A program made the translations under genes and the position numbers. Positions 2,169 through 43,834 of a stretch of 64,000 bases of DNA are shown in pieces. Below the pieces are notes generated by a model. That model did not search any database. It was given only the letters and a program-made list of their open reading frames with translations, and was not told the origin of the DNA. Location of the stretch: assembly GCA_013180625.2 (NCBI GenBank), contig SNVD02002538.1, positions 1,594,173 through 1,658,172 on the forward strand, written 5' to 3'. The stretch's first letter is position 1. Every line of letters starts with the position of its first letter. The stretch comes from Boswellia sacra (Eukaryota > Streptophyta > Magnoliopsida > Sapindales > Burseraceae).

Positions 2169-2478
2169 CACCCCCTAATCAGCTTGTTGCTAGTCCCTAG
2201 CAATTAAAGCTTTATTATTTAGAAGTGATTTATAGAATTTTACATCCAAGATGGTCATTATTGCACTCTCCTTGATCTATTCAAATAAACAAACTCTCAA
2301 CCAATTTTTTTCTCTTTTTTTTTTTTTTTAAGACTTATGTACCCTTCAGTCAAGATATTAACAAACCTTTCTTTTTGTGCTTAGTCGACATATGACTATG
2401 GGACTTATTAGAAAGAAGCCATATCTATTCGAATATTTGTTAAGGCTAACATCCTTAGGCACGGGACATTCATTCATC

Positions 2479-2542
<64 letters not shown>

Positions 2543-3589
2543 TTTACATATTTTTATATTTTTTATTTTTTTTGGAACAATACATCTTTAACCCATATAG
2601 CGAGCCTTAGGCTAATGACTCCTAGACCAGTTGGCCTTAAGGCATTAGGTGTTAAGACACCCCTATGAGCTTAATGACCTGGGTTGTCGATGCTTTATTT
2701 TTGCTTAAAAACTTGTGGATAGTGTAATTTTCAATCCTCTTAAGCTTTCTCCTTAATCCATATAACGAGCTTTGGGCCAATAGCTCCCAAACTAGTTGGT
2801 TTTAGGGTATTAGGTGTTAAGGCACCCATCGGGCTTAATTGCTCGAATTAAGGAGGCTACGAGACCAAACTTATCCACAATTGCTTTTTTTTTCTTTCAG
2901 TTTTTTTTTCTCTTTTTTTTTAACTTTTTCCTTCCTTTTGTTGTTATCCTAAAAAAACAAAAGAACTCAAATATTATAACATTTCATTTCGCCACCCATA
3001 ATCATGCATCAAGGTATATGTGTGTGTGAAGAAAGGTTCGTGAATACTTGCTTAATGAGTACATGAGCAAACAATTTATTAAATGACAAAGTTGTGAGAG
3101 TTCATAGATTTGAATAATTCAAAGTAAAGTGAATAAGACATCCTCGTTATAAAATTCAAAAATCAAAACTAAATAACATCAAGTTAGCTAAAATAAGTCT
3201 TCAAAAGTGTAAAATCAAAACAAAGTGACAATTTGGTTAGAGTCTGTTTCAAGAGTTCAAAATGGTCCTCTTAACTCTGCCATTCCTGACCCAGAATGCA
3301 TCTCAAGAGGATTTGAACTCCTTACACCGCACTCTGAATCTAATTACTCACTCTCTTTTTTTTTTTTTTGCAAGAAAAAGAAAATATATGACACAGTTAT
3401 GTCTACTATCCTTCACCCCCCCCCCCCCCCTCCACCCAACCAAATGGAACATTGTCCTCAATGTTTAAATGTAGAGAGATAAAGTATAGGAGACATTACA
3501 TGAAGCTTCAGTTATTCAAAAGAGATGACCTAAAAGACACGTAAAATAAAATGCTACAAATAAAATAAAAGACAAGAAAGATTACAAGC
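2169..3589 (-). other. 3' non-coding spacer of the old Athila-like element, with microsatellites
   Basis: Spacer between the LOG remnant and the 3' LTR. It contains the degraded polypurine tract (next to 2169), a long TA dinucleotide run (2481-2539), T-rich tracts near 2885-2930 and a C run at about 3416-3430. A roughly 85-base block about start-of-gene-cluster wording (CCATATAGCGAGC...) occurs twice, near 2590-2675 and 2757-2845, and is also doubled in the young element. No coding sequence is evident; short open frames here are low-complexity. Confidence 0.7.
2481..2539. repeat. (TA)n microsatellite
   Basis: Uninterrupted TA dinucleotide run of about 59 bases inside the old element's spacer; the matching site of the young element (about 34134-34145) has a much shorter run, so it expanded after the copies separated. 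Confidence 0.95.
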
Positions 3590-4232
3590 GAAGATTCAGA
3601 TCCAATTTGCACTTTTTGTTTTGTCCCCCTGACTAATTAATTTGAGTTATAGCTGGGTCAGGTTCATACTCGACTGCTTGTAATTTGTCAAGTGATTCAC
3701 TAGCAGTAGTGGCAGAAACAAGGATTTGTCACACCAAATGAGGGATAAATTTCTGGTCTACGGCTACATCAACAAAACGTATCAAAGGATCAAAAACAAT
3801 TTTTAACATTCAACAAACCTATGGGTTTTTTATGGAGATTCAGTTGGGCCCAATAGGCAATTTGAAAAATTCGTTCAAGAGTACCAAAGCCACCTGGTAA
3901 AGCAAGAAAGGCATCTGAATTGATAAGCATATATGCCATGCGTTCATGCATAGAGGAGACTTGTAACTCCTTCCCAACCATTTTTCCAATGATGCTTTCT
4001 ACAGCCAAAGCTTTAGGAATAACATCTAAAACTTGACTGCCTCCTACGAGTGCAACTATTGACACACAATCCATTAACCCGAGGCTATCTCCCCCATCAA
4101 CCACATGAATCTTTCTTTCAGCTAATAGCGTATTAACATAATTTGCTACTGCTACAAACTCTTCACTTTTTTCAGGTTGAGATCAACAGAATACACATAT
4201 CTTTTGGATTCGACGTTTTGAAGTTCACTCCA
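3590..4232 (-). pseudogene. LOG-family cytokinin-activating enzyme remnant in the old retrotransposon
   Basis: The minus strand aligns along its whole length with the intact LOG ORF at 35158-35808. The open core at 3790-4104 still encodes SSMHERMAYML and LPGGFGTLE, the signature of the LOG phosphoribohydrolase family. Breaks: the codon matching the start is ACG rather than ATG; a stop follows the CVFC segment; the frame shifts nearby; the GGGSLGLMG loop reads DGGDSLGLMD; a one-base loss near 3750 shifts the frame again; and a stop lies close to the end. It is intronless like the younger copy. It is certainly non-functional and shows that the cargo was present in the common ancestor of both elements. 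Confidence 0.88.
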
Positions 4233-4559
4233 CGTTTATGCAACTTTCTAACTACATGTGTGGAGTAAAAAACAAGAGATGTCATATTTATGGAGTGCAA
4301 AAAGGTATTCTAGTGATGACATCTAATAGGTAGCTCAGCTATTTGTTAAAAAAGTTTGACAATAAAGCATAGAAATTAAAAAAAATTGATAGAAATAAGA
4401 CACCATAAATGCATGAGTCGACTGAAAGATAGAAATATTAATTCAAAAATGATAGTTGTAAGGCATTAAAATTCAAAAATAATAGCACACATGCATATGT
4501 ACAGGTAGTTGTGACTGTGGCTCACATCTTCCTCTAGTTTTACATCCAGAAACGGCTTA

Positions 4560-5115
4560 AACACCTTCTATGAGTTGGAGATATGCTTCCTATCCAGTTT
4601 TCTTATAAACTGGCAAACATGGTCTTTTTGAGTCAGATTCTCAAGACTATAACGTTCCTACTCGTCTTGACATTGTGTCCATAATTTCAAAATTTCACGT
4701 TGCACAATTCTAGAAGAATGCATCTCAAGAGTCAATTGGATATTATCCAAAGACTTCCTACTCAGTCCATTCTTGATGAGTTGTAGCTTATCCTCTCGAT
4801 TATTAGACAAATATCCCAGGGAGCAAAAACACTAGTTACAAGTCCATCTTGCACATTTTTAACAAACTTGTAACCTTTTCGCTCTTCGCTTTTTGGCATA
4901 AGAGCTTTTTCCCAAACTCGGCATGTGGGAAACAAGATTATCTAAAAACTCACAAGAAAATCAAACCTTGGCTTCAATTAATCATTTAAATCAGCAGGAA
5001 TACCCTTGCACATCAGCATCCTTAGTCTTTCTGCATGAGCTTTGTAAATTTTAAGTAAATCATTTTAAGGAAGAGAGGGAAAACGTTTGTGTAGATTTGA
5101 GAGAATAGTATCCAT
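4560..5115 (-). pseudogene. Broken copy of the cysteine-rich basic cargo ORF
   Basis: Collinear with the open 182-codon ORF at 36123-36671, on the same strand and in the same place between integrase and LOG. The segment SSYAKKRRAKRLQV is kept exactly, followed by a Cys-rich stretch and GYLSNNREDKLQ. In-frame stops interrupt the Cys-rich stretch (around 4830-4860). This copy has a Cys at the site matching Tyr85 of the young copy, so the ancestral cysteine cluster may have been richer than in the surviving open copy. Confidence 0.75.
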
Positions 5116-5249
5116 GTGAAGAAAATGAGAGAGAAGAAAAGAAAATGAATGCAAGGTGAGCAACAGTTTTTAGGGAATTGAAAAACCAACTTTAAAAGTC
5201 ACAGAGTACCGTATCTTCTACTTGACTGGGAAAAATTAATCCTTAAAAG

Positions 5250-8200
5250 GATCGATTAAAGCAATGGACTCTTTATTTTGATCAAAATTTTTAAAGAATG
5301 GTTTTAATTGTTATCCATTAATTTAAAAACATGTTCATTCTTCGGGTTCTCAATTTGAATAGCTCTATGAGGGAAAACATTTTTAGCAATGAAACGCCTA
5401 GTCTAACGAGACTGAAGTTTACCTAGAAACAAATGCAATCTTGAATCATACAAAAGGACTTTTTGTGAAGGTTCAAAAGATTTTTGAATAATGAATTTGT
5501 CATGAAAAACCTTCATTTTTTCTTTGTAGATTTTAGATTTTCATAAGCCTCATTCCTGATTTCTTCAAGTTCACTCAGTTGGAGTTTACGTAACTTGCAA
5601 ACATCATCCAAATTTGTGTTAAATGTTTTAATGGCCTAATAATCTTTATGCTCAATTTCCACAGGCAAGTGACAAAGTTTTCCATAAACTAATCTATAAG
5701 GAGACATTCCTAATGATGTTTTGAAAGTAGTTCGATAAGCCCAAAGTGCATCATTAAATCTTTAGCAGTTCGGTAAGCCCAAAGTGCATCATTAAGTCTT
5801 AAAGACCAATCTTTACGGTTTGGGTTAATCGTCTTTTCTAAGATCTATTTTGTCTCCCTATTAGCTAATTCAACTTGTCCACATGTTTGCGGTGATAAGG
5901 TGTAGAAACTTTATGGGTTATTCTGTATTTCTTCATTAGAGTTTCAAATGGTTTGTTACAAAAATGTGTACCCCCATCACCAATAATGGCTCGAGGAATT
6001 CTAAATCTACACAAGATATTCTCCTTCAAGAATTTGATAACTATTTTGTGATCATTGTTTTGACATGGAATTGCCTCGACCCATTTTGAAATATAGTCTA
6101 CTGCAACAAGAATGTACACAAAACCAAATGATGGTGGAAAAGGTCCCATAAAATCAATACCCCAACAATCAAAGATTTCAACAACAAGGATGGGATTCAA
6201 AGCCATCATGTTTCGTCTTGAAATGGAACCCAATTTTTTACAATTTTCACAAGTTTTTCAAAATGCATGTGCATGTTTAAATAAGGTGGGCCAATAAAAT
6301 CCACATTGCAAGATTTTAGCTGTTGCTTTTTTAGATGAAAAGTGTCCTCCACATGCTTCGGAATGACAAAAATTAATGACACTACTTACCTCATTGTCAG
6401 TATGCATCTTCTAATTATTTTGTCCGAACAATATTTGAATAGATATGGGTCATCCCAATAAAATTTTTTCACCTTGGTCAAAAACTTCCTTTTGTCTCGA
6501 GCATTCCAATGAGATGGCATTTCTCTTGCTGCTAGAAAAATTACAATGTTAGCAAAACAAGGTACTACAGCAACGGAGAATAAAAATTCATCAAGAAAAG
6601 AGTCATTGATAGGTGAAGTTCCAATTAATGTCTCTGTCATTAATCTTGACAGATGGTTTGCAACGACATTTTTGGCTCTTCTCTTATCCTTTATTATGAT
6701 GTTGAATTCTTGGAGCAAAAAGATCCATCGTATCAATCTAGGTTTTGCATCCTGTTTAGACATTAAACATCTCATAGCTGCATGGTCAGTGTAAACAATC
6801 GTTGGAGAACCGATTAAATAAGATCGAAATTTTTCCAATGCAAATACTACTGCAAGTAGTTCTTTTTCAGTTGTTGTGTAATCCATTTGTGCATCATTTA
6901 AAGTCCTACTTGCATAGTATATCACATAAGGTTTACCTTCTTTTCTTTATCCTAAGACAGCACCAACGGCATAGTCACTTGCATCACACATCAATTCAAA
7001 AGGCAAGGACCAATTAGGAGATTGCATAATTAGAGCAGTTGTTAAAAGTCTAATTAAATTATCAAAGGCATTTTGGCATTCTTGAGTCCATTCAAAAGAA
7101 GTGTCTTTTATTAAGAGGTTGCAAAGAGGTTTAGATATTGCACTGAAATTTCTTATGAACCTCCTATAAAATCCAGCATGCCCTAAGAATGAACGTACCT
7201 CTTTGACTGTTTTTGGTGGAGGTAAATGGAAAATTAATTCTACTTTTGCTTTGTCCACTTCAATTCACTTAGAAGACACCACATGACCTAAAAGAATTTC
7301 TGAAGTAACCATATAATGACATTTTTCCCAATTCAAAATAAGACCTTTTTCTTCACACCTTTTAAGGACTTTTTCTAAGTTTTCAAGACAATTATCAAAA
7401 GAGTTACCAAAGACAATTAAATCATCCATGAAAACTTCTAAGCAATGCTCAACCATGTCATTAAAAATGCTCAACATGCATCGTTGAAAAGTAGCTGGAG
7501 CATTACAAAGTCCAAAAGGCATCCTTCTAAATGCAAAAGTGCCAAAGGGGCACGTGAATGTGGTCTTTTCTTGGTCTTTAAGTGCAATGGGAATTTGATA
7601 ATAGCCTGAGTATCCATCAAGAAAGCAGTAGTAGGAGTGCCATACTACTCTTTCTAGAATTTGATCGAGAAATAATAAGGGAAAATGGTCTTTTTTGGTG
7701 ACAGCATTTAATTTTCTATAATCAATGCACATCCTCCAACTAGATGAGGCATGAGTTGGTAATGATTCACCCTTTTCATTTTTGACTACTGTAATGTCAG
7801 ATTTCTTAGGTACTACTTGTGTAGGGCTTACCCACTTACTATCAGAAATAGGGTAGATAATTCCCACATCAAGTAGTTTGAGAACTTCAACCCTAATGAC
7901 CTCTTTCATTTAGGGATTTAATCTCCTTTGAGGTTGTTAGGATGTTTTGGCATTTTCTTCTTAATGTATTCTATGTGTACAAATCAAAGGGTTAATGCAT
8001 TTTATGTCTTTTAAATTCCACCTGATTGCATTTTTATGCCTTTTAAGCACTTCTATTAACTTACCTTGTTGCTCGCTTGTGAGGGATGAAGAAATTACCA
8101 CCGGATATGTTTTATTCTCCCCAAGATATGCGTATTTTAGTCCTTCAAGTAAAGGCTTCGGCTCTAACTTGGCGCTTCCTCTTCCTTGCTTTCATTCATT

Positions 8201-8790
8201 TGCCCCAATTCTTCGAATCTTGGTTTTGATCCTTTTTCCATCACTTGTGCACACTCCAGTAAAAAACATATATCAAAAAGATCAGGCTCTAGTTCCATAC
8301 TTGACTCTAATGAATTGACTAAACAAGTTTTCGAAGGGTCAAAAGAACTCTCTTTTTGGATGTGGTCTTCCACAATAGTTTCAATCATATTAGCCTCCTC
8401 AACTTCATCATCTTCTTCATGCGGTTGATTTGCACATATTAAAAACGTTAAGTTCAAATGTCATGTTCCTTAATGATAGCTTCATGACACCATTCCTGCA
8501 ATTAATCAAAGCATTAGAGGTAACTAAAAATGGACACCCTAAAATGACAGGAGTTTAATTACATACTTTCACTGGTTGTATATCCAAGATCGTAAAATCC
8601 ACTGGGTAAATGAATTTATCGACTTGAACTAACACATCTTCCACTACTCCTCTTGGCACTTTAATTGATCTATCAGCAGGTAAAAGAGTCACAGAAGTTG
8701 GTTTTAACTCACCTAGATTGAGTTTCTGAAAAACAGAGTATGGAAACAAATTCACACTAGCACCAAGATCAAGTAAAGCTTGTTCAATTT
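5250..8790 (-). pseudogene. Degraded Athila-like pol (protease, RT, RNase H, integrase)
   Basis: Successive open pieces on the minus strand, in element order: end of protease (8555-8755, with the DRSIKVPRGVVEDVLVQVD segment); reverse transcriptase (7265-7909, with CIDYRKLNAV and the catalytic variant FMDD); RT connection (6947-7258, GFYRRFIRNFSAISKPLCNLL); RNase H (6386-6925, VYTDHAAMR); integrase core (5865-6233, [14 protein letters not shown] and [15 protein letters not shown]). Stops and frameshifts between and inside the pieces rule out function. The integrase C-terminal part continues to about 5330 in fragments. Confidence 0.88.
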
Positions 8791-10560
8791 TATGAAATTA
8801 TAGGACAACCTGGATCCTTATATTTCACTGTATTATTGTTTTGAAGAATAGCACTTACTTGCTCGGCTAGAAAGGCCTTCTTTTTCACATTCAATTTTCT
8901 TTTCACAGTACACAAATCTTTCAAAAAAATTTGCATAACAAGGTACCTGTTTGATCACATCTAACAAGGGAATGTTGACCTTTACCTGTTTGAAAATTTC
9001 AAAGATTTCAGAGTTGTGACTTGGCTTCTTTTGTGTGGCTAATGCTTAAGGAACTAGAGGCACAAATGGGGATTTGGTTCCTTCTTCACTAGGTGTTGGT
9101 TTGGTAACCTTTTCCTGACCTTTAGAGATTGATTCTTCTTCTTTCTCCTAAGGTTTAGGAATATGTTTTTCAACAACCTTACCATTGCAAAGGGTCATGA
9201 TTGATTTGGCTTGGTTCACATAATGGCTATTTGAACTCCCCGCATTTGAGTTGGATTGACCTTTAGGGTTTTGTAGTGTTTGAGAAGGAAATTTTTCTTT
9301 TTCTTGGATGCTAAATGTGGATGCAAATTTTGCAAGAGTGTCTGACAAATTTGCTACTGTTTGAGCAGTTTGACTATTGGAAGTCTCTTGCTTTGTAATG
9401 AATGAATGTAATGTCTCTTCAAGGTCATTCCTAGGAGGAGGAGCATATGCATGATCGTGAGAATTTTGAAAATTTTGATATATTTGAAAAGGGACTTGTG
9501 AAGATTGTGCATGATTGTCATTTTTCCAACTAAAATTCGGATGATTTCTCCAACCACAATTGTAGGTTTGTGAGTATGGATTGTGATTTGGCCTTTTGAA
9601 ATTGTTCAAAGCATTGGCTTGTTCATTGAGACATTCCCTAAAGGCAAGCAAAGTTGGGCACTCATCAGTAGAATGGTCATTATCATTACAAATGTGACAG
9701 ACAATTTCTTGAATAGAATTCAATTGACCACTCTTTTTCATTTCTAAAGCCTTGACTTTTCTAGCTAGGGATGCATATTTGGCTTGAAGGTCATGGTTTT
9801 CCCTAAAGTTGCAACTGCCTCTATTGGATATCGAGGTTGGGGCTTTGCTTGGTGCCTCATAGGTGTCAACAGTGTCCCAATTTTGGGCTTTGTCTACTAA
9901 TGAATCTAGGTAGTCAATTGCTTCATTAGGATCTTTATCTCCAAATTCTCCGTTACATATTAACTCCACTAGTTGTCTATCTTGAGGTGTTAACCCTTCA
10001 TAGAAGTGTGCAACTAGTCTCCAAGTTTCAAACCCATGGTGAGGATAGGTATTAAGTAATTCTTTGTACCTATCCCAACATTGGTAAAGAGTTTCTCCTT
10101 GTTTTTGAGTGAAAGTGGTGATTTGTCTTTTAAGAGAATTTGTTCTATGGGTAGGAAAAAAATTTTCGAGAATTGTTGTTTCATCTCATCCCATTAACTC
10201 ATGGAGCTTGACCTCAAATTTTGTAGACATGTTCTAGCTTTATCTTTTAAATAAAAATGAAAAAGCTTTAATCTAATGGTGTTTATGCTACAGTTTGAGT
10301 CACTGTAGGAGTTACACACTTCTTCAAAGATTTTTAAGTGGGAATATGGGTTCTTCATATCAAGGCCATGAAAGGTGGGTAAAAGTATAACGAAACTCAA
10401 TTTGAAATTGAAAAGGATTGCGTCGAGAGGAGAAATTACACAAGATGGTGCACTAATCCTTACCAGATTCATGTAATCTTTGAGAGTTCTTGGTTGGTTT
10501 TGGTAATTTTGTTGGAAACGATTGTCCCCTTCATCCGTGAACCTTTTCACTTGATTTCAG
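8791..10560 (-). pseudogene. Degraded, 5'-truncated Athila-like gag
   Basis: Open pieces at 9148-9969 and 10194-10550 (minus strand) match the gag of the young element. A zinc knuckle CHICNDNDHSTDEC (CX2CX4HX4C) lies in the 9148-9969 piece, before an Asn/Gln/Pro-rich stretch. The capsid-like part (PTFHGLDMKNPYSHLKIFEEVC) is in the upper piece. The segment ends near 10560 without the gag start, because the 5' end of the element is missing. Confidence 0.85.
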
Positions 10561-12264
10561 CCTTAAAATGGCATTTTTTTCTATCGCGTTTTGGTTAATT
10601 TTGTTTTTTAAGTTTGTCTTGGTTAAGGTTTGAGTATTTAAACATTACGTTATTGTTGCAATAGCAACTTTGATTACTAATGAATAAGAATTTCTTTCAG
10701 TTTTCATGGTTCTTTGCGATTCGTGTGGGATTGCATATGAGATTCAACGGATTACTGCTATACTATTTTGACTTTGATTTGTTCTATTCAACCCCTATTT
10801 TCGATCTCATTAACCCCCACTTCAAAATTAAATAACGGTAAAATTTTAATAAAAGTATAATAAATAACATAATTAATGTTAAGGGAGTGGACTTAACAAA
10901 AAACTCCTCATTATCCTCATACATCTCTAATCTTTTCTCCTATTTTCTCTCTAAGCTCACATGATCTTTATCCTCTCTCTCAAATATTTGTGTTTTTTTT
11001 ATCTCAAATTAATTACAAATTGATTATCATTCTTTCCCTATAAATTTCAACCAGTTACATAATTTTAAATCTAAAGGCCAAATTATCTCTACTTTTCTAT
11101 ATTTCTCTCTTCCTTTCAAATGCCAAAACTAATAAAAAAATTCATTGATTAATCAATTGATATGAATTTGAAGAATTTAATAATATAGAGAGAAACAATT
11201 GATTGAAGTTAAATTCCTTTAAAAGTTATTTTTATGTATCACTCATATTTGAAGAATTTAATAATATAGAGAGAAACAATTGATTGAAGCTAAATTCCTT
11301 TAAAAGTTATTTTTATGTATCACGTGTATTAGTATTTAAATTTACAAAATGCAAATATATAGAAAAAAATTGAAAGAAAAAAGGGTTAAACACCATTAAG
11401 ATTAAATGATAATTTAATTAACGGTGAGATTAAAGAGGAAAAAATGTCAAACACCATTAAATTCAAATGATAATTAATTAAGTTTGTCATAAATATATTT
11501 GAAATTGAATATTCAGTATAACAAAAGATTGTCTAAATTATAATTCTATCCTTGTTCAATAAGAGATAGTGGCTAATAAGATAAACAATGAGAGCATGAT
11601 ATAATTACTCTTTTTAACTTTTCTGTTTAGGCCTCTTTCTCGTAATGTTTCGTAGCATCAAACCCAACCCGACCCAACAGTTGGAAAGGAAACCCCTCAT
11701 TATTATATTCTGGTGGGCTTCTAACATTTTGATTTGGTCCATTCAAATTGAGTCAAAGTGCAACTTCAAACCATTCGTGTTTCGACTGTAATCTCATGAG
11801 AACCCAAAGGTAACCTATCATTAAACAAGATTCAGTTTGCAATTTGGCTGCGTTGTTTAGCCCAAACTTAGAAGGGTAAATACGACACGGTCATTTGGTT
11901 CAAGTAGTCCTTTTTGATGGTAAAATGAAAAACAACAGATGAAATGTAGAGAAGAAGATTTAATCATTTGTTTCAATATACAAAACCTCTAAATTTCAGT
12001 AACGCATTAGATTTTCAATGAAGTTTCCAAAGGAGGAAGAAACCAATTACATATTAAAAATTTAAAACAGAGAAAGATTGTTATCATGATTTAAGTTAAA
12101 TCGAGTATCATTTCTACATATTGTATACAGAATACCAAAAAACGCTGCATTTAGAAAGACCCAAAAGATTTATTTAATTATTAAAAGATTTGATCTCCTA
12201 TTATTGATTTTTTTTCTAAAATTATGAAATTTTTATTTTACGCTATTGTTGAAATCAGGAATGA
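10561..12264. other. Intergenic, AT-rich; no gene seen
   Basis: No coding region can be supported. It holds a short tandem duplication (11166-11323) and otherwise simple AT-rich sequence. The last eight bases (12257-12264) form one arm of a target duplication for the next element. Confidence 0.6.
11166..11323. repeat. Tandem duplication, period 81 bases
   Basis: Two almost identical adjacent copies starting at 11166 and 11247 (ATTTGAAGAATTTAATAATA...), ending ...TTTTTATGTATCAC. No coding potential; it looks like a recent local duplication. Confidence 0.9.
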
Positions 12265-28746: not shown

Positions 28747-28889
28747 TTTTTCCTTTTTTAGGGGTGATGGAAGATGAAATTGAGGTAAACTAAGTTGATG
28801 GTGGTGGGAGGTTTTAGGGTTTATGGATTGAGCAAAAATTAAAGGATAAATAGTATAAGAGGGGATCAAAACCACGCTCTGATACCAAT

Positions 28890-30807: not shown

Positions 30808-31010
30808 ATTCTCTACCTTCACGGTTTAGCTAATCCACCACAAGACTCTTCTTTTTTCCCTATTCTCTGTCATAGTTGCAATGCCTCCAAATGTGCCTAA
30901 TGGCGCAGTCAAACTCGTACAATGTTGATCAAATTCAAACCATGACTGAACTTAATCGTTGTCACAACCTTAGTCAACATATCTACGGGATTCTTGGCAG
31001 TCCCAATCTT

Positions 31011-32288: not shown

Positions 32289-32293
32289 TGGAC
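32289..32293. repeat. Target site duplication TGGAC (left arm) of the young Athila-like element
   Basis: TGGAC immediately precedes the LTR terminus TGACAC; the same five bases follow the opposite LTR at 43830-43834. Confidence 0.95.
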
Positions 32294-33821
32294 TGACACA
32301 TCCGAAAAAGGATTGTCTCCCAAGTATAGGAGTGTCGAAGTAATAAAATCCGATGAAACCGGGGTCGATCCACGAGGAAGGGAATTTAAGCGTTACAAAT
32401 TATAAGCTAAACAAATGTGATATGGATGATTCAAAGAGGTGACATGATAATATCAACAAGTATGTAAGATGGTAGGTGGTATTACCGACCATTCAAATAT
32501 AAAACAAAAAGCAAGAGGAGGTAAAACCATCCATGGAAATAGGTGGTATAACCAACCATAGTAAATTAAAGAAAAATTTCATAAGGTGGTAGAACCTACC
32601 ATAGTAAATAAAATAAAAAGTTCATAAACAATAGAATAATTAAAATACAAGAGGAATTAACACAATAACAATGAAGGCTAAGGTTAGGGGATCCGCCCTT
32701 GATATTTCAAATAAGGATAATTAACCCATTTTAGTTATATGAATTATATTTGTTTCATTACCAATATTTATACCACTTCTTGTAAATGGGTTCAAGCATC
32801 CAATGTGCCAATCATCATATGTCTACAACAAATCAAGGTTCCTAACTAGATTCGTGTCGGTAAGGAAGAACCATACATCATCTAGAAAGGATCCAAGCAT
32901 TTGATGTGCCAAGGATTGTCGACAATGGATCAAGACCTCCACTTTACGAGTGGTGTCAAGATTGATTAAGAAATTAAATATAAATCATATTGAATAAATA
33001 TTATAAGATTAAGATTATTAAGCACATATTAAGGGTTAGAGAATCCTTATTCTCATATCAAGGGTTTCACCCTTTCACCTTAGCAAAAGAGAAATTAGAA
33101 GAACATTATAATAGAAAGAAAATAAAATGCAAGAAAAAGGAAATTCATTAATAACATAAACACACAAAACACAATACAAGATCCTAGCCAAAGCCAAAAT
33201 GTTCCAGCCAAGGCCAAGATGCCCTAATGGGTCACAAGGCACCTCTATTTATAGATACATCCAGGGGCAAACTTGTCAAATTACAAGGGCATAATTGTCA
33301 AATATTAGTTGTAAATATCTTTGACAATTGGGATCATTAGGCACCGACTTTGACCATCAATTTTGACATTGAAATGTTGCCAATTTTAATCACATGTCTT
33401 CATGAAAGTTGTAGATATTTCTCTCAGCTTTCTAGAACATCTTGATTTGCACAATTTGGATACATATTTTGAGAGATACGGTCCAAATACTGAGGCCTGG
33501 TCAGACTGGACCGAGACTGTAGATGGGTTCACTTCAAGCCCAATTTTGGTCCACTAAGAGCCCCAATTTGATGATGCTTGTGAAATGAAATCTTGTAGAC
33601 AATTGAATCAGCTTTCCAAAACATTAAGAATTGCACCATTCTGATCTATAAATAGAGAGTTATGCCCATTTTACCGAACCTGTAACAAAACCAAATTAAG
33701 AGGAATTAATTCCAAAGATGCAAATGCTACAAATATGCTTAAGTTGAGGAATTTAATGACACTATTAATGCAATATGATGAACTAAACTCTTATTAAACA
33801 TGCATATTTAAGTGTTCATCA
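32294..33821 (-). repeat. 3' LTR of the young Athila-like element
   Basis: 1528 bases from TGACACATCC to GTTCATCA. A TATA box CTATAAATAGAGG (minus strand, about 33243-33255) sits inside. The matching LTR is 42305-43829. Confidence 0.97.
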
Positions 33822-33831
33822 CACCCCCCAA
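33822..33831 (-). other. Polypurine tract of the young Athila-like element
   Basis: On the minus strand the ten bases read TTGGGGGGTG, directly before the 3' LTR, the expected plus-strand primer of reverse transcription. Confidence 0.88.
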
Positions 33832-35157
33832 CTAGCTTATTGCTAGTCCCTAGCAATTAAAGCGTTATTATTTAGAAGTGATTTATAGAATTTTCCATCC
33901 AAGGTGGTCATTATTGCACTCTCCTTGATTTTATCCAAATAAACAAACTCTCAACCAATTATTATTATTATTATTTTTTTTATGACTCATGTACCCTTTA
34001 GTCAAGATATCAATAAACCTCATTTTTGTGCTCAGTTAACACATGACTATGGGGCTTATTAGAAAGAAGCCCTATCGGTTCTAATATTTGTTAAGGCTAA
34101 CAACTTTAGGTAGGGGGCATTCATTTATTTTATATATATATATATGTGTTTTTTTTTTGAAAGAATGCATCTTTAACCCATGTAGCGAGCCTTAGGCTAA
34201 TGGATCCCAGACCAGTTGGCCTTAGGGCATTAGGTGTTAAGACACCCCTTCGAGCTTAACGACTCGGGTTGCCGATGCTTTATTTTTGCTTAGAAACTTA
34301 TGGATAGTGCAATGTTCAATCCCATTAAGCTTTCTCCTTAATCCATGTAGCGAGCTTTGGGCCAATAGCTTCCAAACCAGTTGGTCTTAGGGTATTAGGT
34401 GTTGAGGCACCCCTCGGGCTTAATTGCTCGAATTAAGGAGGCTACGAGACCAAACTTTATCCACAATTGCTATTTTTTTCTTCTTTTTTCTTTTTTTTTG
34501 CTTTTTTTTTTTAACTTTCCCCTTCCTTTGTGTTGTTATCCTAAACAAAATAAAAGAACTCAACTATTACAACATTTCATTTTGCCACCCACAATCATGC
34601 ATCAAGGTATGTGTGTGTGTGTGAAGAAATGTTCATGAATACTTGCTTAATGAGTACATAAGCACACAATTTTTTTTTTTTAAAATGATAAGGTTGTGAG
34701 AGTTCATAGATTTGAATAATTCAAAGTGAAATGAATAAGACCTGCTTGTTATAAAATTCAAAAATCAAGACTAAATAATATCAAATAAGTCTTCAAAAAT
34801 GCAAAAATAAAATGACAAATTGGTTAGAATGGGTTTCAAGAGTTTAAACTGGTCCTCCATACTCTGCCATTCCTGACCCAGAATGCGTCTCAAGAGGATT
34901 TGAACTCCTTACACCGCACTCTGAATCTAATTACTAACTAGCTCTTTTTTTTTTTTGCAAGAAAAAAATTCAAGACACACTTATGTCTACTATCCTTCCC
35001 CCCCCAACCAAATGAAACATTGTCCTCAATGTTTAAATGTAGAGAGATAAAGTATAGGAGACATTACCTAAAGCTTCTGTTATTCAAGAGAGATGACCTG
35101 AAAGAATCATAAAATAACATGCTAAAATAAAATAAAATAAAGGACAAGAGAAAAAAA
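33832..35157 (-). other. Non-coding spacer between LOG cargo and 3' LTR
   Basis: No supported coding frame. A block of about 85-90 bases occurs twice in direct orientation (about 34170-34260 and 34340-34430; each contains TAGCGAGC, CCAGTTGG and ATTAGGTGTT). T-rich tracts lie near 34470-34515. The same arrangement is present in the old element, so the repeats predate both insertions. It would form a long 3' UTR to a LOG transcript. Confidence 0.75.
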
Positions 35158-35808
35158 TTATAAACGGAGATTCAGATCCAATTTGCACTTTTTGTTTTGC
35201 CCTCCTGCCCAATTAATTTGAGTACTAGCTGGGTCAGGTTCATACTCAACTTCTTGTAATTTGTCAAGTAACTCACCAGCAGAAGTGGCAGAAACAAGGA
35301 TCTTTCTCGCTGAATGAGGGATAAAATTTTGTTCCACAGCTGCATCAACAAAACTTATCAAAGGATCAAAGAAATTTTTAACATTCAACAAACCTATGGG
35401 TTTTTGATAGAGATTCAATTGGGCCCAAGAGGCAATTTGAAAAATTTCTTCCAGAGTGCCAAAGCCACCTGGTAAAGCAATAAAGGCATCTAAATTGATG
35501 AGCATATGTGCCATGCGTTCATGCATAGAGGAGACCTGTAACTCCTTCCCAACCGTTTTTCCAACAATGCTTTCTACAGCCAAAGCTTTAGGAATAACTC
35601 CTAACACTTGACTACCTCCTACATGTGCAGCTGTTGATACGCAACCCATTAACCCGAGGCTACCTCCCCCATAAACCACATGAATCTTTCTTTCAGCCAG
35701 TAGTCTACCAAGGTAATTTGCTACTTCTATAAACTCCTCACTTTTACCCAGTCGGGATCCACAGAATACACATATCCTTTGGATTCGACGTTTTGAAGTT
35801 CCCTCCAT
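35158..35808 (-). CDS. LOG: LOG-family cytokinin riboside 5'-monophosphate phosphoribohydrolase carried by the retrotransposon
   Basis: LOG enzymes release active cytokinin base from its nucleotide in one step. The 216-codon intronless ORF is complete and of normal family length. Visible family features: GGGSLGLMG at 47-55 (phosphate-binding loop), MHERM with Arg98, and PGGFGTLEE at 113-121 with Glu121; Arg and the motif Glu are the catalytic residues described for the family. The C-terminus ends KLDLNLRL, an LxLxL pattern like an EAR motif. Host LOG genes have several introns; this copy has none, so capture probably went through mRNA. It is in the sense direction of the element, after integrase and the cysteine-rich ORF, with a TATA-like box about 50 bases upstream. 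Whether it is expressed or active is unknown. Confidence 0.92.
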   Translation of the reverse strand: MEGTSKRRIQRICVFCGSRLGKSEEFIEVANYLGRLLAERKIHVVYGGGSLGLMGCVSTAAHVGGSQVLGVIPKALAVESIVGKTVGKELQVSSMHERMAHMLINLDAFIALPGGFGTLEEIFQIASWAQLNLYQKPIGLLNVKNFFDPLISFVDAAVEQNFIPHSARKILVSATSAGELLDKLQEVEYEPDPASTQINWAGGQNKKCKLDLNLRL

Positions 35809-35857
35809 ATCTATGCAACTCTCTAACTATGTGTGAAGAAGAGAACAAGAGATGTGG

Positions 35858-35865
35858 TATTTATG
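35858..35865 (-). promoter_or_regulatory. TATA-like box upstream of the LOG cargo ORF
   Basis: The minus strand reads CATAAATA, 50-57 bases before the LOG ATG (35808), followed by a CT-rich stretch suited to transcription start (about 35825-35855). The same box is kept in the old element (about 4281-4296). It could allow LOG transcription independent of the LTR. Placement is suggestive, not proof. Confidence 0.4.
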
Positions 35866-36122
35866 GAGTGCAAAAAGGTATGCTAATGATGATATCTATC
35901 TAGGTAGCTCGGTTTTTTGTTGAAAAATTTGACAATAATGCATAAAAATTCAAAAGATTATGAAATAAGACACATAAGTCAAACAAAAGATACAAATTCA
36001 AAAATGACAGCTATGAGGTATTAAAATTCAAAAATGATGGCACGCATGCATATGTACAGGTAGTTGTGACTGTGGCTCACATCTTCCTCTGGTTTTACTT
36101 CCAGAAACGGCTTAAACACCTT

Positions 36123-36671
36123 CTATGAGTTGGGGATATGCTTCCCATCCAGTTTTCTTATAAACTGGCAAACTTGGTCGTTTTGAGTCAGATTCCCAAG
36201 ACTATAGCGTTCCTGCTCATCTCGGAATTGTGTCCACAAATTAAAAATTTCACGCTGCACAAGTCCACAAGAATACGTCTCAAGAGTCGTTCGGATATCA
36301 TCCAAAGACTCCTTACTCAATCCATTCTTGATGAACTGTAGTTTATCCTCTCGATTGTTAGACAAATATCCCAAGGAGCGGCAACGCTGGTTACAAGTCC
36401 ATCTTGTACATCTGGGATAAACTTGTAACCTTTTTGCTCTTCGCTTTTTGGCATAAGAGCTTTTTCCCAAACCTGGCATATGGGAAACAAGATTATCTGA
36501 AAACTCACAAGAGAATCGAACCTTGGCTTCAATTAACCATCTTAAATCAGCAGGAATACCCTTACGCATCAACAACCTTAGTCTTTCTGCACGAGCTTTA
36601 TAAATTTTAAGCAAATCATTTTGAGGAAGAGAGGGAAAATGTTTGTGCAATTTTGAGAGAATGGTATCCAT
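36123..36671 (-). CDS. Cysteine-containing basic protein of unknown function (carlavirus CRP-like centre)
   Basis: 182 codons, open, located 314 bases upstream of LOG and just after integrase. Residues 1-60 are likely helical (KARAERLRLLMRK). Residues 68-82 contain GKSSYAKKRRAKRL, followed by Cys88, Cys93 and Cys97, then GYLSNN and QFIKNGLSKE (112-121). A basic YA-[RK]-rich stretch, then a Cys cluster, then a Gly-Ser/Asn turn and an FI-x2-G segment is the layout of the small nucleic-acid-binding proteins of carlaviruses, some of which act in silencing suppression or the nucleus. The Cys spacing here is not a perfect match. The rest (122-182) has no recognised relative. The homology and any role are inference. 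Confidence 0.6.
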   Translation of the reverse strand: MDTILSKLHKHFPSLPQNDLLKIYKARAERLRLLMRKGIPADLRWLIEAKVRFSCEFSDNLVSHMPGLGKSSYAKKRRAKRLQVYPRCTRWTCNQRCRSLGYLSNNREDKLQFIKNGLSKESLDDIRTTLETYSCGLVQREIFNLWTQFRDEQERYSLGNLTQNDQVCQFIRKLDGKHIPNS

Positions 36672-36754
36672 GTGAAGAAAATGAGAGAGAAGAAAGAAAA
36701 TGGATGCAAGGTGAGCACGTTTTTTAGGTAACTTGAAAACCGACTTTTAAAACG

Positions 36755-39700
36755 TCACGGAGTAGCCGTTCCCGCCACTTGACGGGAAAAATCATCTATA
36801 AAAAGGTCGTTAAAGCAATGGACTCTTCGTTTTGGGCAAAAATTTTCAAAGAATGGTTTTAACCGTTGTCCATTAACTTTAAACACATTACCATTCTTTG
36901 GGTTCTTAATTTCAACTGCTCCATTAGGAAAAACATTTTTACAATGAAAGGCCCAGTCCAACGGGACCGAAGTTTACCAGGAAACAAATGCAATCTTGAA
37001 TCATACAAAAGAACTTTTTGTGAAGGTTCAAAAGATTTTCTAACAATAAATTTGTCATGAAAAACCTTCATTTTTCTTTGTAGATTTTAGAATTTTCATA
37101 AGCCTCATTCCTGATTTCTTCAAGTTCACTCAGTTGGAGTTTTCGTAACTTGCAAGCATCATCAAGTTTGTGTTAAATGTTTTAATGGCCCAATAAGCTT
37201 TATGTTCAATTTCCACCGGCAAGTGACAAGGTTTTCCATAAACTAGTCTAAGGCGATATTCCAATGATGTTTTACAAGCAGTTCGATAAGTCCCAAGAAG
37301 TGCATCATTAAGTCTTAAAGAACCAATCTTTACGACTTGGGTTAACAGTTTTTTCTAAGATCTGTTTTATCTTCCCTATTAGCTAATTCAGCTTGTCCAC
37401 TTGTTTGTGGTGATAGGTGTAAAATTTTATGGGGTTATTCCATGAGTTTTTCCTTCATTAAAGGTTCAAATGGTTTGTTACAAAAATGTGTACCTCCATC
37501 ACTAATAATGGCTCGAGGAATTCCAAATCTACTCAAGATATTCTCTTTCAAGAATTTGACAACTGTTTTTTGATCATTGTTTCGACATGGAATTGCCTCG
37601 ACCCATTTTGAAACATAGTCTACTGCAACAAGGATGTACACAAAACCAAATGATGGTGGAAAGGGTCCCATAAAATCAATATCCCAACAATCAAAGATTT
37701 CAACAACAAGAATGGGATTCAAAGGCATCACGTTTCTTTTTGAAATGGATCCCAATTTTTGACAATTTTCACACGTTTTGCAAAATGCATGTGCATCTTT
37801 AAACAAGGTGGGCCAATAAAATCCACATTGTAAGATTTTAGCAGCTGTTTTTCTCGATGAAAAATGTCCTCCACATGCATCAGAATGACAAAAGTTAATG
37901 ATACTACTTACCTCATTGTCGGGTATGCATCTTCTTATTATTTGATCCGGACAATATTTGAAAAGATACGGATCATCCCAGTAAAAATTTTTTACCTCGA
38001 TTAAAAATTTTCTTTTGTCTTGAGCATTCCAATGAGGTGGCATTTTTCCTGTCGCAAGAAAATTTACAATGTTAGCAAACCAAGGTACAGTAGCAACGAA
38101 AAATAAAAATTCATCAGGAAAATAATCATTGATAGGTGAAGTTTCAATTAATATCTCTGTCGTTAGTCTTGAAAGGTGATCAGCAACGACATTTTCGGCT
38201 CTTTTCTTATCCTTTATTGTGATTTTGAATTCTTGGAGCAATAAGATCCATCGTATCAATCTAGGTTTTGCATCCTGTTTAGACATTAAATATCTCACAG
38301 CTGCATGGTCCGTGTAAACAATCATTGGAGAACCAATTAAATAAGATCAAAATTTTCCAATGCAAATACTACTACAAATAGTTCTTTTTTAGTTGTTGTG
38401 TAATTCATTTGTGCATCATTTAAGGTCCTACTTGCATAGTATATCACATTAGGCTTACCTTCTTTTCTTTGTCCTAAGACAACACCAACGGCATAGTCAC
38501 TTGCATCACACATCAATTCAAAAGGCAAGGACCAATCAGGAGATTGCATAATTGGAGACAGGTTGTTAAAAAGCCCAATTAATATATCAAAGGCATTTGA
38601 CATTCTTGAGTCCATTCAAAGGAAGTATCTTTTATTAAGAGGTTACAAAGAGGTTTAGATATAGCACTGAAATTTCTTATGAACCTCCTATAAAATCCAG
38701 CATGCACTAAGAATGAACGAACCTCTTTAACTGTTTTTGGTGGAGGCAAATGGGAAATTAATTCCACTTTTGCTTTATCCACTTCAATTCCTTTAGAAGA
38801 CACCACATGACCTAAAACAATTCCTGAAGTGACCATATAATGACATTTTTCCCAATTCAAAATAAGACCTTTTTCTACACACCTTTTTAGGACTTTTTCT
38901 AAATTTTCAAGACAATTATCAAAAGAGTTTCCAAAGACAGTTAAATCATCCATGAAAACTTCTAAACAATGCTCAACCATGTCACTGAAAATGCTTAACA
39001 TGCATCTTTGAAAAGTGGCTGGGGCATTACAAAGTCCAAAAGGCATTCTCCTAAATGCAAAGGTGCCAAAGGGGCACGTGAATGTGGTATTTTCTTGGTC
39101 TTCAAGTGCAATGGGGATTTGATAGTAGCCTGAGTATCCATCAAGAAAGCAGTAGTAGGGGTTTCCTGCTACTCTTTCAAGAATTTGGTCAAGAAAGGGT
39201 AAGGGAAAATGGTCTTTTCTAGTGACAGCATTTAATTTTCTATAATCAATGCACATCCTCCAACTAGATGAGACACGAGTTGGCAATAATTCACCCTTTT
39301 CATTTTTAACTACTGTAATGCCAGATTTCTTAGGTACTACTTGTGTAGGGCTTACCCACTTACTATCAGAAATAGGATAGATAATTCCCACATCAAGTAG
39401 TTTGAGAACTTCAGCCCTAATGACCCCTTTCATGTGTGGATTTAATCTCCTTTGAGGTTGTTGAGATGTTTTGGCATTTTCCTCTAAATGTATTCTATGT
39501 GTGCAAATTAAAGGGTTAATGCCTTTTATATCTTTTAAAGTCCACCCAATTGCATTTTTATGCCTTTTAAGCACTTCTATCAACTTACCTTTTTGCTCGC
39601 ATGTGAGGGATGAAGAAATTACCACCGGATATGTCTGATTCTCCCCAAGATATGCATATTTCAGTCCTTCAGGTAAGGGCTTCAATTCTAGCTTGGGAGC

Positions 39701-40090
39701 TTCATCTTCCTTGCTTTCATTCATCTGCCCCAATTCTTCAAATCTTGATTTTGAGCCTTTTTCCATCACCTGTGCACAATCCAATAAAGAGCATATATCA
39801 GAAAGATCAGACTCTAGTTCCATGCTTGATTCTAATGAATTCACTAGAGAAGTTTCCAAAGGGTCAGAAGAACTCCCTTTTTGGATGTGATCTTCCACAA
39901 TAGATTCAATTACATTGGCTTCATCAACTTCATCTTCTTCTTCATTTGGTTGTTTGCACATATTAAAAACATTAAGTTCTAATGTCATGTTCCCAAATGA
40001 TAGCTTCATGACTCCATTCCTGCAATTAATCAAAGCATTAGAAGTAGCTAGAAATGGACGCCCTAAAATAACAGGAATTGAATTGCTTAC
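36755..40090 (-). pseudogene. Athila-like pol: end of protease, RT, RNase H, integrase (frameshifted)
   Basis: RT is in 38579-40096: LLDVGIIYPISDSKWVSPTQ, CIDYRKLNAVTRKDHFPLPF, and the active-site variant FMDD. RT connection and RNase H continue at 38337-38615 and 37435-38325 ([13 protein letters not shown]). Integrase has an HHCC zinc region (HSDACGGHF...CKTCENC) and core segments [10 protein letters not shown] and [10 protein letters not shown] supplying the two Asp; the Glu-containing part is disrupted near 37430. The C-terminal part with [16 protein letters not shown] is at 36859-37071, ending near 36755. Frame breaks occur near 38590, 38335 and 37435; three look like single-base losses in short homopolymers relative to the old copy. 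Needs helper proteins to move. Confidence 0.92.
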
Positions 40091-42103
40091 TTCCACGGTT
40101 GTGTGTCCAAGACGATAAAATCCACTGGGTAAATGAATTTATCGACTTGAACTAACACATCTTCTACTATTCCTCTTGGTACTTTAATTGATCTATCAGC
40201 AAGCAAAAGAGTCACAGAAGTTGGTTTTAACTCACCTAGATTGAGTTTTTGAAAAACCGAGTATGGAAGTAAATTCACACTAGCACCAAGATCAAGTAAA
40301 GCTTGTTCAATTTTATGGTCTCCAATAACACATGAAATTGTAGGACAACCTGGATCCTTATATTTCACTGTATTATTATTTTGAAGAATAGCACTTACTT
40401 GCTCGGCTAGAAAGGCCTTCTTTTTCACATTTAGTTTTCTTTTCACAGTGCACAAGTCTTTCAAAAATTTTGCATAAGAAGGTACCTGTTTGATCACATC
40501 AAGCAAGGGAATGTTGACCTTTACCTGTTTGAAAATTTCAAAGATTTCAGAATTGTGAGTTGGCTTCTTTTGTGTGGCTAATGCTTGAGGAAATGGAGGC
40601 ACAGATGAGGATTTGGTTTCCTCTTCGCTAGGTGTTGGTTTGGCAACCTCTTCTTGCCCTTTAGAGATCGATTCTTCTTCTTTCTCACAAGGGTTAGGAA
40701 TATGTTTTTCAACAACCTTACCATTGTGAAGGGTCATGACTGACTTGGCTTGGTCAAAATAATGGTTATTTGAACTCCCTGCATTTGAGTTAGATTGATC
40801 TTTGGGGTTTTGCAATGTTTGAGAAGGAAATTTTCCCTTCTCTTGGATGCTAAATGTAGATGCAAATTTTGCAAGAGTTTCTGACAAAGTTGCTAATGTT
40901 TGAGCAGTTTGACTATTGAAAGTCTCTTGCTTTGTAATGAATGAATGCAATGTTTCTTCAAAGTCATTCCTAGGAGGAGGAGCATATGCATGATCATGAG
41001 AATTTTGAAAATTTTGTCGTGTTTGAAAAGGGACTTGTGAAGATTGTGCATGATTGTCATTTTTCCAACTAAAATTTGGATGATTTCTCCAACCAGGATT
41101 GTAGGTTTGTGAATATGGATTGTGATTTGGCCTTTTGAAAGTGTTCAAGGCATTGACTTCTTCATGGAGACATTCCCTAAAGGCAGGCAAAGTTGGGCAA
41201 TCATCAGTAGAATGGTCATTGTCATCACAAATGTTACAGACATTTTCTTGAATAGACTTCAATTGACCACTCTTTTTCATCTCTAAAGCCTCGACTTTTC
41301 TAACTAGGGATGCAAATTTGGCTTGAAGGTCATGGTCTTCCCTAAGGTTGTAAATGCCTCTATTGGATGTCGAGGTTGGGGCCTTGCCTGGTACCTCATA
41401 GGTGCCAGCAGTGTCCCAATTTTGTGCCTTTTCTGCCAAGGAATCTAGGAAGTCAAGTGCTTCCTCAGGGTCTTTTTCTTTAAATTCTCCATTACACATT
41501 AATTCTACTAGTTGCCTATCTTGAGGTGTTAACCCTTCATAGAAGTGTGCAACTATTCTCCAAGTTTCAAACCCATGGTGAGGACAGGTATTAAGTAGTT
41601 CCTTATACCTATCCCAACATTGGTAAAGGGTTTCTCCTGTTTTTGAGAGAAATCAGAAATTTGTCTTTTAAGAGAATTTGTTCTATGGGTAGGAAAAAAT
41701 TTTTTCAAAAATTGTTGTTTCATCTCATCCCATAAGCTGATGGAATTCGACCTCAAATTTTGTAGCCATGTTCTAGCTTTATCTTTTAAAGAAAAAGGAA
41801 AAAGCTTTAATCTAATGGTGTTTATGCTACAATTTGGGTCAGTGTAGGAGCTACATACCTCTTCAAAGAGTTTCAAGTGCGAATATGGGTTCTCCATGTC
41901 AAGGCCATGAAAAGTGGGTAGAAGTCGAACAAAACTTGGTTTGAAATTGAAATGGATTGAATCTGGAGGAGAAACTACACAAGATGGTGCACTAGTCCTT
42001 ACCGGATTCATGTAGTCTTGAGGGTTCTTCGTTGGTTTTGATCATTTTGTTGTGAACGGTTGTCCTCTTCATCCGTGAATATTTCCTCATGATTGTCGGC
42101 CAT
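40087..42103 (-). pseudogene. Athila-like gag and protease (two one-base frameshifts)
   Basis: Likely start is the Met at 42103 (MADNHEEIFTDEEDNRSQQ). The capsid-like part is at 41553-42011 (LLPTFHGLDMENPYSHLKLF, LKDKARTWLQNLRS). The part at 40087-41499 has the zinc knuckle CNICDDNDHSTDDC, an Asn/Gln/Pro-rich linker and a protease with LLDLGASVNLLPYSVF, the DLGA active-site variant normal for Athila. Frame is broken near 42010 and near 41638; at both places the old copy has one more base (TCTTTGAG and CTCCTTG), so these are deletions here or consensus errors in the assembly. Confidence 0.9.
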
Positions 42104-42280
42104 GTTTTCTAAGGAAGATGATGTTTTTCTAACAAGTCTACCACTAGATGTTCGTGACCAAATTTTCATGCAAGAAAGAGAGAAGAAGGGAGAGGAAAAG
42201 ATGAACACACAAAAAAAAAAAATTTAGATCTAAGATGAGAAAAGAGAATACTTACCAATTTTGCACGCCAATTTTTACCT

Positions 42281-42298
42281 TCGCCGGCAACGGCGCCA
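42281..42298 (-). other. Primer-binding site, tRNA-Asp type
   Basis: The minus strand reads TGGCGCCGTTGCCGGCGA, matching the 3' end of plant tRNA-Asp except at one position, six bases inside the 5' LTR. This primer is typical of the Athila clade. Confidence 0.88.
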
Positions 42299-42304
42299 AA
42301 AACT

Positions 42305-43829
42305 TGACACATCCGAAAAAGGATTGTCTCCCAAGTATAGGAGTGTCGAAGTAATAAAACCCGGTGAGACCGGGGTCGATCCACGAGGAAGGGAATTTAA
42401 GCGTTACAAATTATAAGCTAAACAAATGTGATATGGATGATTCAAAGAGGTGACATGATAATATCAACAAGTATGTAAGATGGTAGGTGGTATTACCGAC
42501 CATTCAAATATAAAACAAAAGCAAGAGGAGGTAAAACCATCCATGGAAATAGGTGGTATAACCAACCATAGTAAATTAAAGAACAATTTCATAAGGTAGA
42601 ACCTACCATAGTAAATAAAATAAAAAGTTCATAAACAATAGAATAATTAAAATACAAGAGGAATTAAAACAATAACAATGAAGGCTAAGGTTAGGGGATC
42701 CGCCCTTGATATTTCAAATAAGGATAATTAACCCATTTTAGTTATATGAATTATATTTGTTTCATTACCAATATTTATACCACTTCTTGTAAATGGGTTC
42801 AAGCATCCAATGTGCCAATCATCATATGTCTACAACAAATCAAGGTTCCTAACTAGATTCGTGTCGGTAAGGAAGAACCATACATCATCTAGAAAGGATC
42901 CAAGCATTTGATGTGCCAAGGATTGTCGACAATGGATCAAGACCTCCACTTTACGAGTGGTGTCAAGATTGATTAAGAAATTAAATATAAATCATATTGA
43001 ATAAACATTATAAGATTAAGATTATTAAGCACATATTAAGGGTTAGAGAATCCTTATTCTCATATCAAGGGTTTCACCCTTTCACCTTAGCAAAAGAGAA
43101 ATTAGAAGAACATTATAATAGAAAGAAAATAAAATGCAAGAAAAAGGAAATTTATTAATAACATAAACACACAAAACACAATACAAGATCCTAGCCAAAG
43201 CCAAAATGTTCCAGCCAAGGCCAAGATGCCCCAATGGGTCACAAGGCACCTCTATTTATAGATACATCCAGGGGCAAACTTGTCAAATTACAAGGGCATA
43301 ATTGTCAAATATTAGTTGTAAATATCTTTGACAATTGGGATCATTAGGCACCGACTTTGACCATCAATTTTGACATTGAAATGTTGAGAATTTTAATCAC
43401 ATGTCTTCATGAAAGTTGTATATATTTCTCTCAGCTTTCTAGAACATATTGATTTGCACAATTTGGATACATATTTTGAGAGATACGGTCCAAATACTGA
43501 GGCCTGGTCAGACTGGACCGAGACTGTAGATGGGTTCACTTCAAGCCCAATTTTGGTCCACTAAGAGCCCCAATTTGATGATGCTTGTGAAATGCAATCT
43601 TGTAGACAATTGAATAATCTTTCCAAAACATTAAGAATTGCACCATTCTGATCTATAAATAGAGAGTTATGCCCATTTTACCGAACCTGTAACAAAACCA
43701 AAATTAAGAGGAATTAATTCCAAAGATGCAAATGCTACAAATATGCTTAAGTTGAGGAATTTAATGACACTATTAATGCAATATGATGAACTAAACTCTT
43801 ATTAAACATGCATATTTAAGTGTTCATCA
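42305..43829 (-). repeat. 5' LTR of the young Athila-like element
   Basis: 1525 bases, TGACACATCC...GTTCATCA. The element promoter lies here. Confidence 0.97.
43251..43263 (-). promoter_or_regulatory. TATA box of the Athila-like 5' LTR
   Basis: The minus strand reads TCTATAAATAGA, a strong plant TATA sequence, about 950 bases from the inner end of the LTR. It would start the genomic transcript toward gag. Confidence 0.6.
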
Positions 43830-43834
43830 TGGAC
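43830..43834. repeat. Target site duplication TGGAC (right arm)
   Basis: Matches 32289-32293 exactly. Confidence 0.95.

Follow-up and report, generated by a model that had tools for sequence, protein, structure and literature searches.

Does an LTR retrotransposon of Boswellia sacra carry an intact LOG gene, one of the cytokinin-activating-enzyme type, as lasting cargo, and what could such a gene do for the element? The locus that raises this question lies in a window of 64,000 nucleotides, the whole stretch of DNA analysed here. To our knowledge, plant retrotransposons have seldom been shown to act on their hosts via proteins beyond gag-pol. A search of the host genome for other LOG-bearing elements, a tree of LOG proteins and a comparison of dN/dS across copies, all proposed in an earlier note on this DNA, were carried out.

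The LOG ORF runs uninterrupted from ATG to TAA. It matches the Pfam domain Lysine_decarbox (PF03641) with an E value of 5.1e-37 and 127 bits, a score that rules out a chance match given the cut-off of 27. The solved structures nearest to it by sequence are those of Arabidopsis At2g37210 (PDB 2a33, E 1.5e-60) and then At5g11950 (1ydh, E 3e-54). GGGSLGLMG, Arg98 and PGGFGTLEE, which the earlier note had reported as kept, are all in the ORF, as is Glu121 (P0001); we take Arg98 and Glu121 to be functional residues of LOG enzymes. By its Pfam domain and its solved relatives the ORF is thus a full-length LOG, as had been claimed, and cytokinin release is predicted for its product. A TATA-like stretch, CATAAATA at 35858-35865 on the minus strand, precedes the start of LOG by about 50 bp and is identical in a second copy of the element, copy B; it is a possible mark of LOG's own transcription start.

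The element around this ORF, copy A, reads on its minus strand as 5′ LTR, gag, protease, reverse transcriptase (RT), integrase, an ORF termed NABP, LOG and 3′ LTR (Table 1), in agreement with the placing of LOG between integrase and 3′ LTR on the element's coding strand. Its characters are those of a Ty3/gypsy element: LTRs with TG..CA ends, a 5-bp target duplication (GTCCA, at 32289-32293 and 43830-43834), gag, and RT before integrase. The element had been described as complete. This holds for its structure, with both LTRs and the GTCCA duplication present, but not for its coding capacity, since gag-pol is split into several ORFs and copy A is therefore not coding-intact. By its sequence features copy A may be Athila-like; the ATHILA Pfam model is not among the Pfam matches of the window ORFs. 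The primer-binding-site-like stretch is presumably a match to plant tRNA-Asp. Assuming 1.3e-8 substitutions per site and year in plants, copy A is roughly 0.4 million years old by the divergence of its LTRs. Direct, copia-type LTR-like repeats (30239-30809 and 46601-47179, 89% identical) flank copy A, with copia-type ORF pieces close by, and copy A was apparently inserted inside this older copia-type element. For copy B a second LTR was not found within the window; its remnants carry four stops in LOG and six in NABP, with one indel each.

Table 1. Positions of the LOG-bearing element, its parts and its older relative in the window
Feature	Position	Strand	Evidence
LTR retrotransposon copy A, about 11.5 kb, apparently nested in a copia-type element	32294..43829	-	LTR pair, TG..CA ends, target site duplication
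5′ LTR	42305..43829	-	98.7% identical to 32294-33821 over 1529 columns
3′ LTR	32294..33821	-	LTR comparison, ends
Primer-binding-site-like stretch TGGCGCCGTTGCCGG	42284..42298	-	Just inside 5′ LTR
gag piece	41553..42011	-	Retrotrans_gag 7.4e-14
gag/protease piece	40087..41499	-	Asp_protease_2 7.3e-4, under its cut-off
Reverse transcriptase piece	38579..40096	-	RVT_1 7.4e-30
Integrase piece, shortened	37435..38325	-	rve 3.6e-13, Integrase_H2C2 1.6e-13
NABP, 182 aa	36123..36671	-	Viral_NABP 6.9e-6, Carla_C4 1e-4
LOG, 216-aa cytokinin-activating-enzyme-type ORF	35158..35808	-	Pfam, solved relatives
LOG C-terminal tail KKCKLDLNLRL: basic patch and LxLxL	35161..35193	-	Sequence, motif counts
Older copy B, same family; LOG remnant 3582-4233, NABP remnant 4568-5115	624..10562	-	Repeat and remnant comparison

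Further features lie elsewhere in the window. A 263-aa ORF at 48627-49418 (plus strand) matches the Pfam Viral movement protein PF01107 (1.8e-7); with more plus-strand ORFs up to 53386 it is perhaps the remnant of an endogenous pararetrovirus. The copia-type gag of another element is present at 61214-61810 (plus strand; Retrotran_gag_2, 3e-34). Direct repeats of 449 bp, 98.9% identical, at 27394-27841 and 28889-29337 are perhaps the LTRs of a short element. A 307-aa, HEAT/CLASP_N-like ORF at 57549-58472 (minus strand) is likely to be a host gene exon. Tandem repeats have units of 126 bp (49923-50181), 192 bp (60222-60646) and 181 bp (29905-30238).

NABP, located between integrase and LOG, had been missed in the earlier note. 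It scores above the Pfam cut-offs for both Viral_NABP (26.6 bits, cut-off 23) and Carla_C4 (22.6 bits, cut-off 20.9), the similarity covering its basic stretch and first cysteines. Database relatives number 325 at E up to 0.001, and the best 120 of these 325 are 53-75% identical to it; named ones among the matches listed come from Populus, Xanthoceras, Rhamnella, Acer and Orobanche. In the aligned set (E up to 0.001), 55/60 relatives match Viral_NABP and 53/60 Carla_C4. The usual cysteine spacing, C-x2-C-x4-C-x3-C, is seen in 103 of 121. In one Rhamnella protein (P0203) an NABP domain is followed by a LOG domain. The window NABP has Tyr at position 85 in place of a nearly invariant Cys, so this copy may be impaired. 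Structure models of NABP were of low confidence (pLDDT 51.5 for the first and 67.8 for the second), and in a viral structure search with the latter no hit passed E 0.001, the first-ranked being a carlavirus NABP at E 2.1. No relatives of NABP were confirmed in IMG/VR; the search with LOG gave 24 loci of 24-49% identity. Two NABP copies elsewhere in the assembly (G000:C3305:11775-12320 and C3673:81383-81928) lie within longer open frames, of 870 and 563 aa respectively, as if read in frame with a second ORF. Viral relatives of NABP suppress silencing and determine pathogenicity according to part of PMC12172455, which describes p12 of chrysanthemum virus B also as a transcription factor inducing hyperplasia.

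To address the amplification of LOG and NABP, the host assembly (638.6 Mb, 7431 contigs) was searched with both proteins. First-look candidates numbered 14573 for LOG and 13625 for NABP, loose and uncontrolled counts. The best 150 LOG places, the window copy included, are 94-100% identical to the window LOG over at least 213 of its 216 residues, and 123 of them are free of stops. The best 150 NABP places are at least 95% identical (94-100% across both genes), with 124 stop-free. Between these two sets 34 places adjoin, the window among them, LOG following NABP on the same strand at a distance of about 300-340 bp. A second sample of 48 loci was drawn from a Pfam-ranked list of 150 LOG-domain places, the ranking being by intact LOG domain. 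In 42 of the 48, NABP is found upstream of LOG on the same strand; it is absent in six, one of which (L061) has too little upstream sequence. Three loci (L032, L037 and L042) belong to the window's family, with LOG 88-97% identical, and the remaining 45 show 64-71%; L025, counted as a 216-aa LOG, has an internal stop. Long direct repeats were present on both sides of the NABP-LOG module in five of six insertions examined, and the sixth, the C4162 pair, has a neighbouring NABP-LOG copy upstream instead of a simple LTR pair. This copy, L075 (G000:C4162:292000-300600), stands just upstream of L063 and shares 95% identity with the downstream piece over 4 kb; the two would be adjacent or tandem insertions. 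A 101-aa piece of Arabidopsis LOG3 listed 150 places in the host genome at 58-61% identity, and these are taken for element copies, not host LOG genes. LOG-bearing elements are thus numerous in this host, and the reading of LOG as lasting cargo, which a single genomic copy would have undone, stands.

Selection on the module was followed between copies. Pairwise dN/dS between copy A and copy B is 0.37 for LOG, 0.40 for NABP, 0.33 for integrase, 0.37-0.40 for gag and 0.20 for RT, all values being raised by the decay of copy B. Between copy A and L032, LOG differs by 19 synonymous and 7 nonsynonymous changes (dS 0.138, dN 0.014). At dS of about 1, comparisons between the two locus groups have median ratios of 0.19 in 81 LOG pairs and 0.22 in 9 NABP pairs, values that reveal constraint. 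Within family 2 the LOG ratio is 0.60 when pooled and 0.18 as a median, a difference taken to be due to outlier pairs.

Many of the loci have lost pol. Thirty-two could be read far enough upstream (10/48 were too short); an integrase or RT core is present in 10, 21 are pol-less, and L064 is neither. At the 21 pol-less loci the end of a protease ORF is followed after 476-605 bp by NABP, RT and integrase being gone. The upstream ORF of L043 is 48% identical over 169 aa to the protease region of the window and also related to the start of the RT ORF, and stops short of the RT core. Two of the insertions with long direct repeats on both sides are pol-less; they have LTR pairs 98.3% and 99.3% identical and clean duplications, AAGAC and GCTAG, so these two transposed as pol-less units. 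A target duplication was sought for the L079/L080 element and not found.

The pol-less loci allow the module to be compared with the protease region of the same elements. With 20 loci each set against one shared reference, L043, pN/pS was 0.70 for the protease region and 0.19 for NABP, and NABP was below protease in 19 of the 20. Within LOG, codons 1-53 gave 0.59, the final 32 codons 0.31 and the final 12 alone 0.10; the 0.09 of the screened domain is biased because the loci had been ranked by intact LOG domain, so that a fair comparison is confined to NABP, protease and the two ends of LOG. Disjoint pol-less pairs gave 46.5 synonymous differences in 925 sites and 29.5 nonsynonymous in 2963 for LOG, and 11 in 253 and 4 in 839 for NABP (4 loci). 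This NABP test is without L038 and L046 (L031 is out of its last row), both of which are included in the L043 comparison. By these codon counts, elements without RT and integrase show tighter constraint on NABP and the LOG tail than on the protease region. The protease region may have been dead before the pol-less branch spread.

Pairing of NABP with LOG, amplification in the host genome, a LOG clade apart from the ordinary plant LOGs sampled, an added LOG tail (see below for clade and tail) and the tighter constraint just described are established from sequence. We consider it about an even call that they reflect a widespread Ty3/gypsy lineage whose two-gene module, NABP and a tailed LOG, targets either the host cell or the transcript of the element itself. 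NABP would bind nucleic acid and blunt silencing or alter host transcription, by analogy with the carlavirus cysteine-rich proteins. LOG would free active cytokinin, leading to more division of cells whose new copies reach the germ line, and its tail could direct it to the nucleus and recruit TOPLESS-type corepressors. The NABP role is predicted from viral relatives, that of LOG from its family and its tail; the influence on meristems envisaged in the earlier note is likewise hypothetical. Since pol has been lost while the module stays constrained, pol may be supplied in trans, with the benefit of the module falling mainly to the copy that encodes it. The two genes are accordingly described as a candidate module for host manipulation: its maintenance is visible as constraint, and its putative activities comprise the release of cytokinin, binding of TOPLESS and suppression of silencing. 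A stronger version is put forward tentatively. The lineage might be an effector carrier, in whose pol-less branch the genes still clearly selected are NABP and a nuclear, corepressor-binding, cytokinin-releasing LOG. Within the cell producing them the two would jointly quiet host control, much like paired effectors of a pathogen, and favour divisions leading to the germ line, with pol, and perhaps gag, borrowed.

The relation of the element LOG to ordinary plant LOGs was examined in a tree. Both groups were the best 120 of two different queries, the ordinary set being rich in LOG1, LOG3 and LOG8 types, so LOGs intermediate between the groups may be unsampled. The element-type set comprised 121 proteins; three with doubled domains (P0002, P0003 and P0034) were left out of tree and clusters, and the remaining 118 were analysed with 120 ordinary plant LOGs and two bacterial ones. 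The groups separate, with support of 0.977 for the element-type clade and 0.872 for the ordinary plant LOGs. The refuting case of the earlier note in which LOG equals a local host gene fails as judged from the 120 ordinary plant LOGs sampled. Names of element-type LOGs elsewhere, among the matches listed, include Xanthoceras, Diplodiscus, Reevesia, Pterospermum, Populus, Melia and Paulownia, several of them many times. Only for the copies of this genome is carriage by an element seen directly; P0203 suggests it, and for the rest of the 118 it is presumed from similarity and copy number.

A typical element-type LOG terminates in a basic patch and then L-[DN]-L-[TS]-L-x-L; the window LOG ends in LDLNLRL, which contains LxLxL, an EAR-type motif with putative TOPLESS-type binding. 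An exact LxLxL terminus was found in 99/121 element-type and 0/120 ordinary plant LOGs. It is present in 26 of 30 clusters of the 118 at 80% identity, in 18 of 20 at 70%, and at 41 of the 48 genomic loci. The basic patch (K-[KR]-x-[KR] or three consecutive basic residues) occurs in 97 of the 106 recognisable tails (of 118), against none of the 120 ordinary LOGs. As described in part of PMC7446885, the oomycete effector HaRxL21 binds TOPLESS via a C-terminal LxLxL, and none of ten LxLxL-containing effectors tested interacted with TOPLESS; LxLxL alone is therefore insufficient for this binding.

The specificity of this tail to the element-type clade would suit a LOG fold kept mainly as a scaffold to display the basic patch and LxLxL, with cytokinin activation secondary or absent. 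LOG proteins form oligomers. In the pol-less loci the last 12 codons are tighter than the N-terminal third, whose weak constraint disfavours a uniform demand on the LOG enzyme. We regard this explanation as unlikely, because active-site residues are present in most members: Arg98 in 111/118 and Glu121 in 113/118, PGGxGTxxE in 104/121 (110/120 among ordinary LOGs) and GGGxxGLMG in 99/121. Alternatively, the LOG fold could act on other nucleoside monophosphates, in the service of reverse transcription or RNA metabolism and not of cytokinin. LOG belongs to a broad phosphoribohydrolase family, and a nucleic-acid-binding partner would fit a role in replication; this too appears rather improbable, as the nearest solved structures by sequence are plant cytokinin LOGs and the tail suggests a nuclear, regulatory role.

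A third explanation is that NABP and LOG were captured once as passive cargo and are intact merely through young insertions. The many near-identical young copies and the 98.7% identity of the copy A LTRs are in keeping with it, as are the stops already present in 27/150 LOG copies (read off the list) and 26/150 NABP copies (best 150 each). It does not account for the between-family ratios at dS of about 1, for the difference of NABP from protease in the same pol-less loci, or for an NABP frame kept in relatives from other plants at 53-75% identity. As the whole story a passive recent capture is strained, and we judge it distinctly improbable. An assembly error or chance neighbour, with LOG mis-joined to one element, found no support and was rejected with next to no residual probability in view of the 150 scored copies, the NABP pairing and the direct repeats.

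On the reading of a maintained NABP-LOG module, selection seems to preserve one hormonal and one virus-like gene in a very abundant family, even in copies without RT and integrase. The long-standing question of whether transposons in plants encode proteins dedicated to steering host development or silencing can now be tested directly. For annotation, LOG-like 'genes' in such genomes may be members of mobile families mistaken for host cytokinin genes.

The earlier note had regarded LOG as unusual retrotransposon cargo; it is not unprecedented. As given in part of PMC9289625, the YgdH domain, found in LONELY GUY proteins, is present in Gypsy consensuses of Citrus sinensis, C. clementina and Populus trichocarpa, in agreement with Steinbauerova 2011, cited there. 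These elements resemble the present one in having a LOG-type domain inside a eudicot Ty3/gypsy element, whereas NABP, a C-terminal motif, pol-less forms and selection are not mentioned in that part of the paper. Best-ranked matches in open-licence PubMed Central text had no joint mention of retrotransposon with LONELY GUY, nor of retrotransposon with the NABP Pfam names, both weak evidence. Also described in part of PMC9289625 are Phalaenopsis Gypsy elements with an AlkB-type RNA demethylase ORF, active in vitro. There, as with LOG here, a host-type enzyme is kept as an extra ORF, but the enzyme is another one, a single plant genus is concerned, and no virus-type partner gene is mentioned in that part. 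Additional sense-strand ORFs located between pol and 3′ LTR in plant LTR elements are treated in part of PMC7264820 as env-like; they share place and strand with NABP and LOG, which however have other, clear relatives. The element LOG shares an LxLxL at or near the C-terminus with pathogen effectors of the HaRxL21 type, although here the motif terminates a transposon LOG enzyme and TOPLESS binding is putative. The element NABP is like the cysteine-rich nucleic-acid-binding proteins of carlaviruses and allexiviruses above the Pfam cut-offs, and differs from them in being a protein of 182 aa, with the usual C-x2-C-x4-C-x3-C, borne by a retrotransposon and not an RNA virus. Thus, LOG in Gypsy elements was already known; NABP, the basic and LxLxL tail, and pol-less elements that keep both genes go beyond the earlier note.
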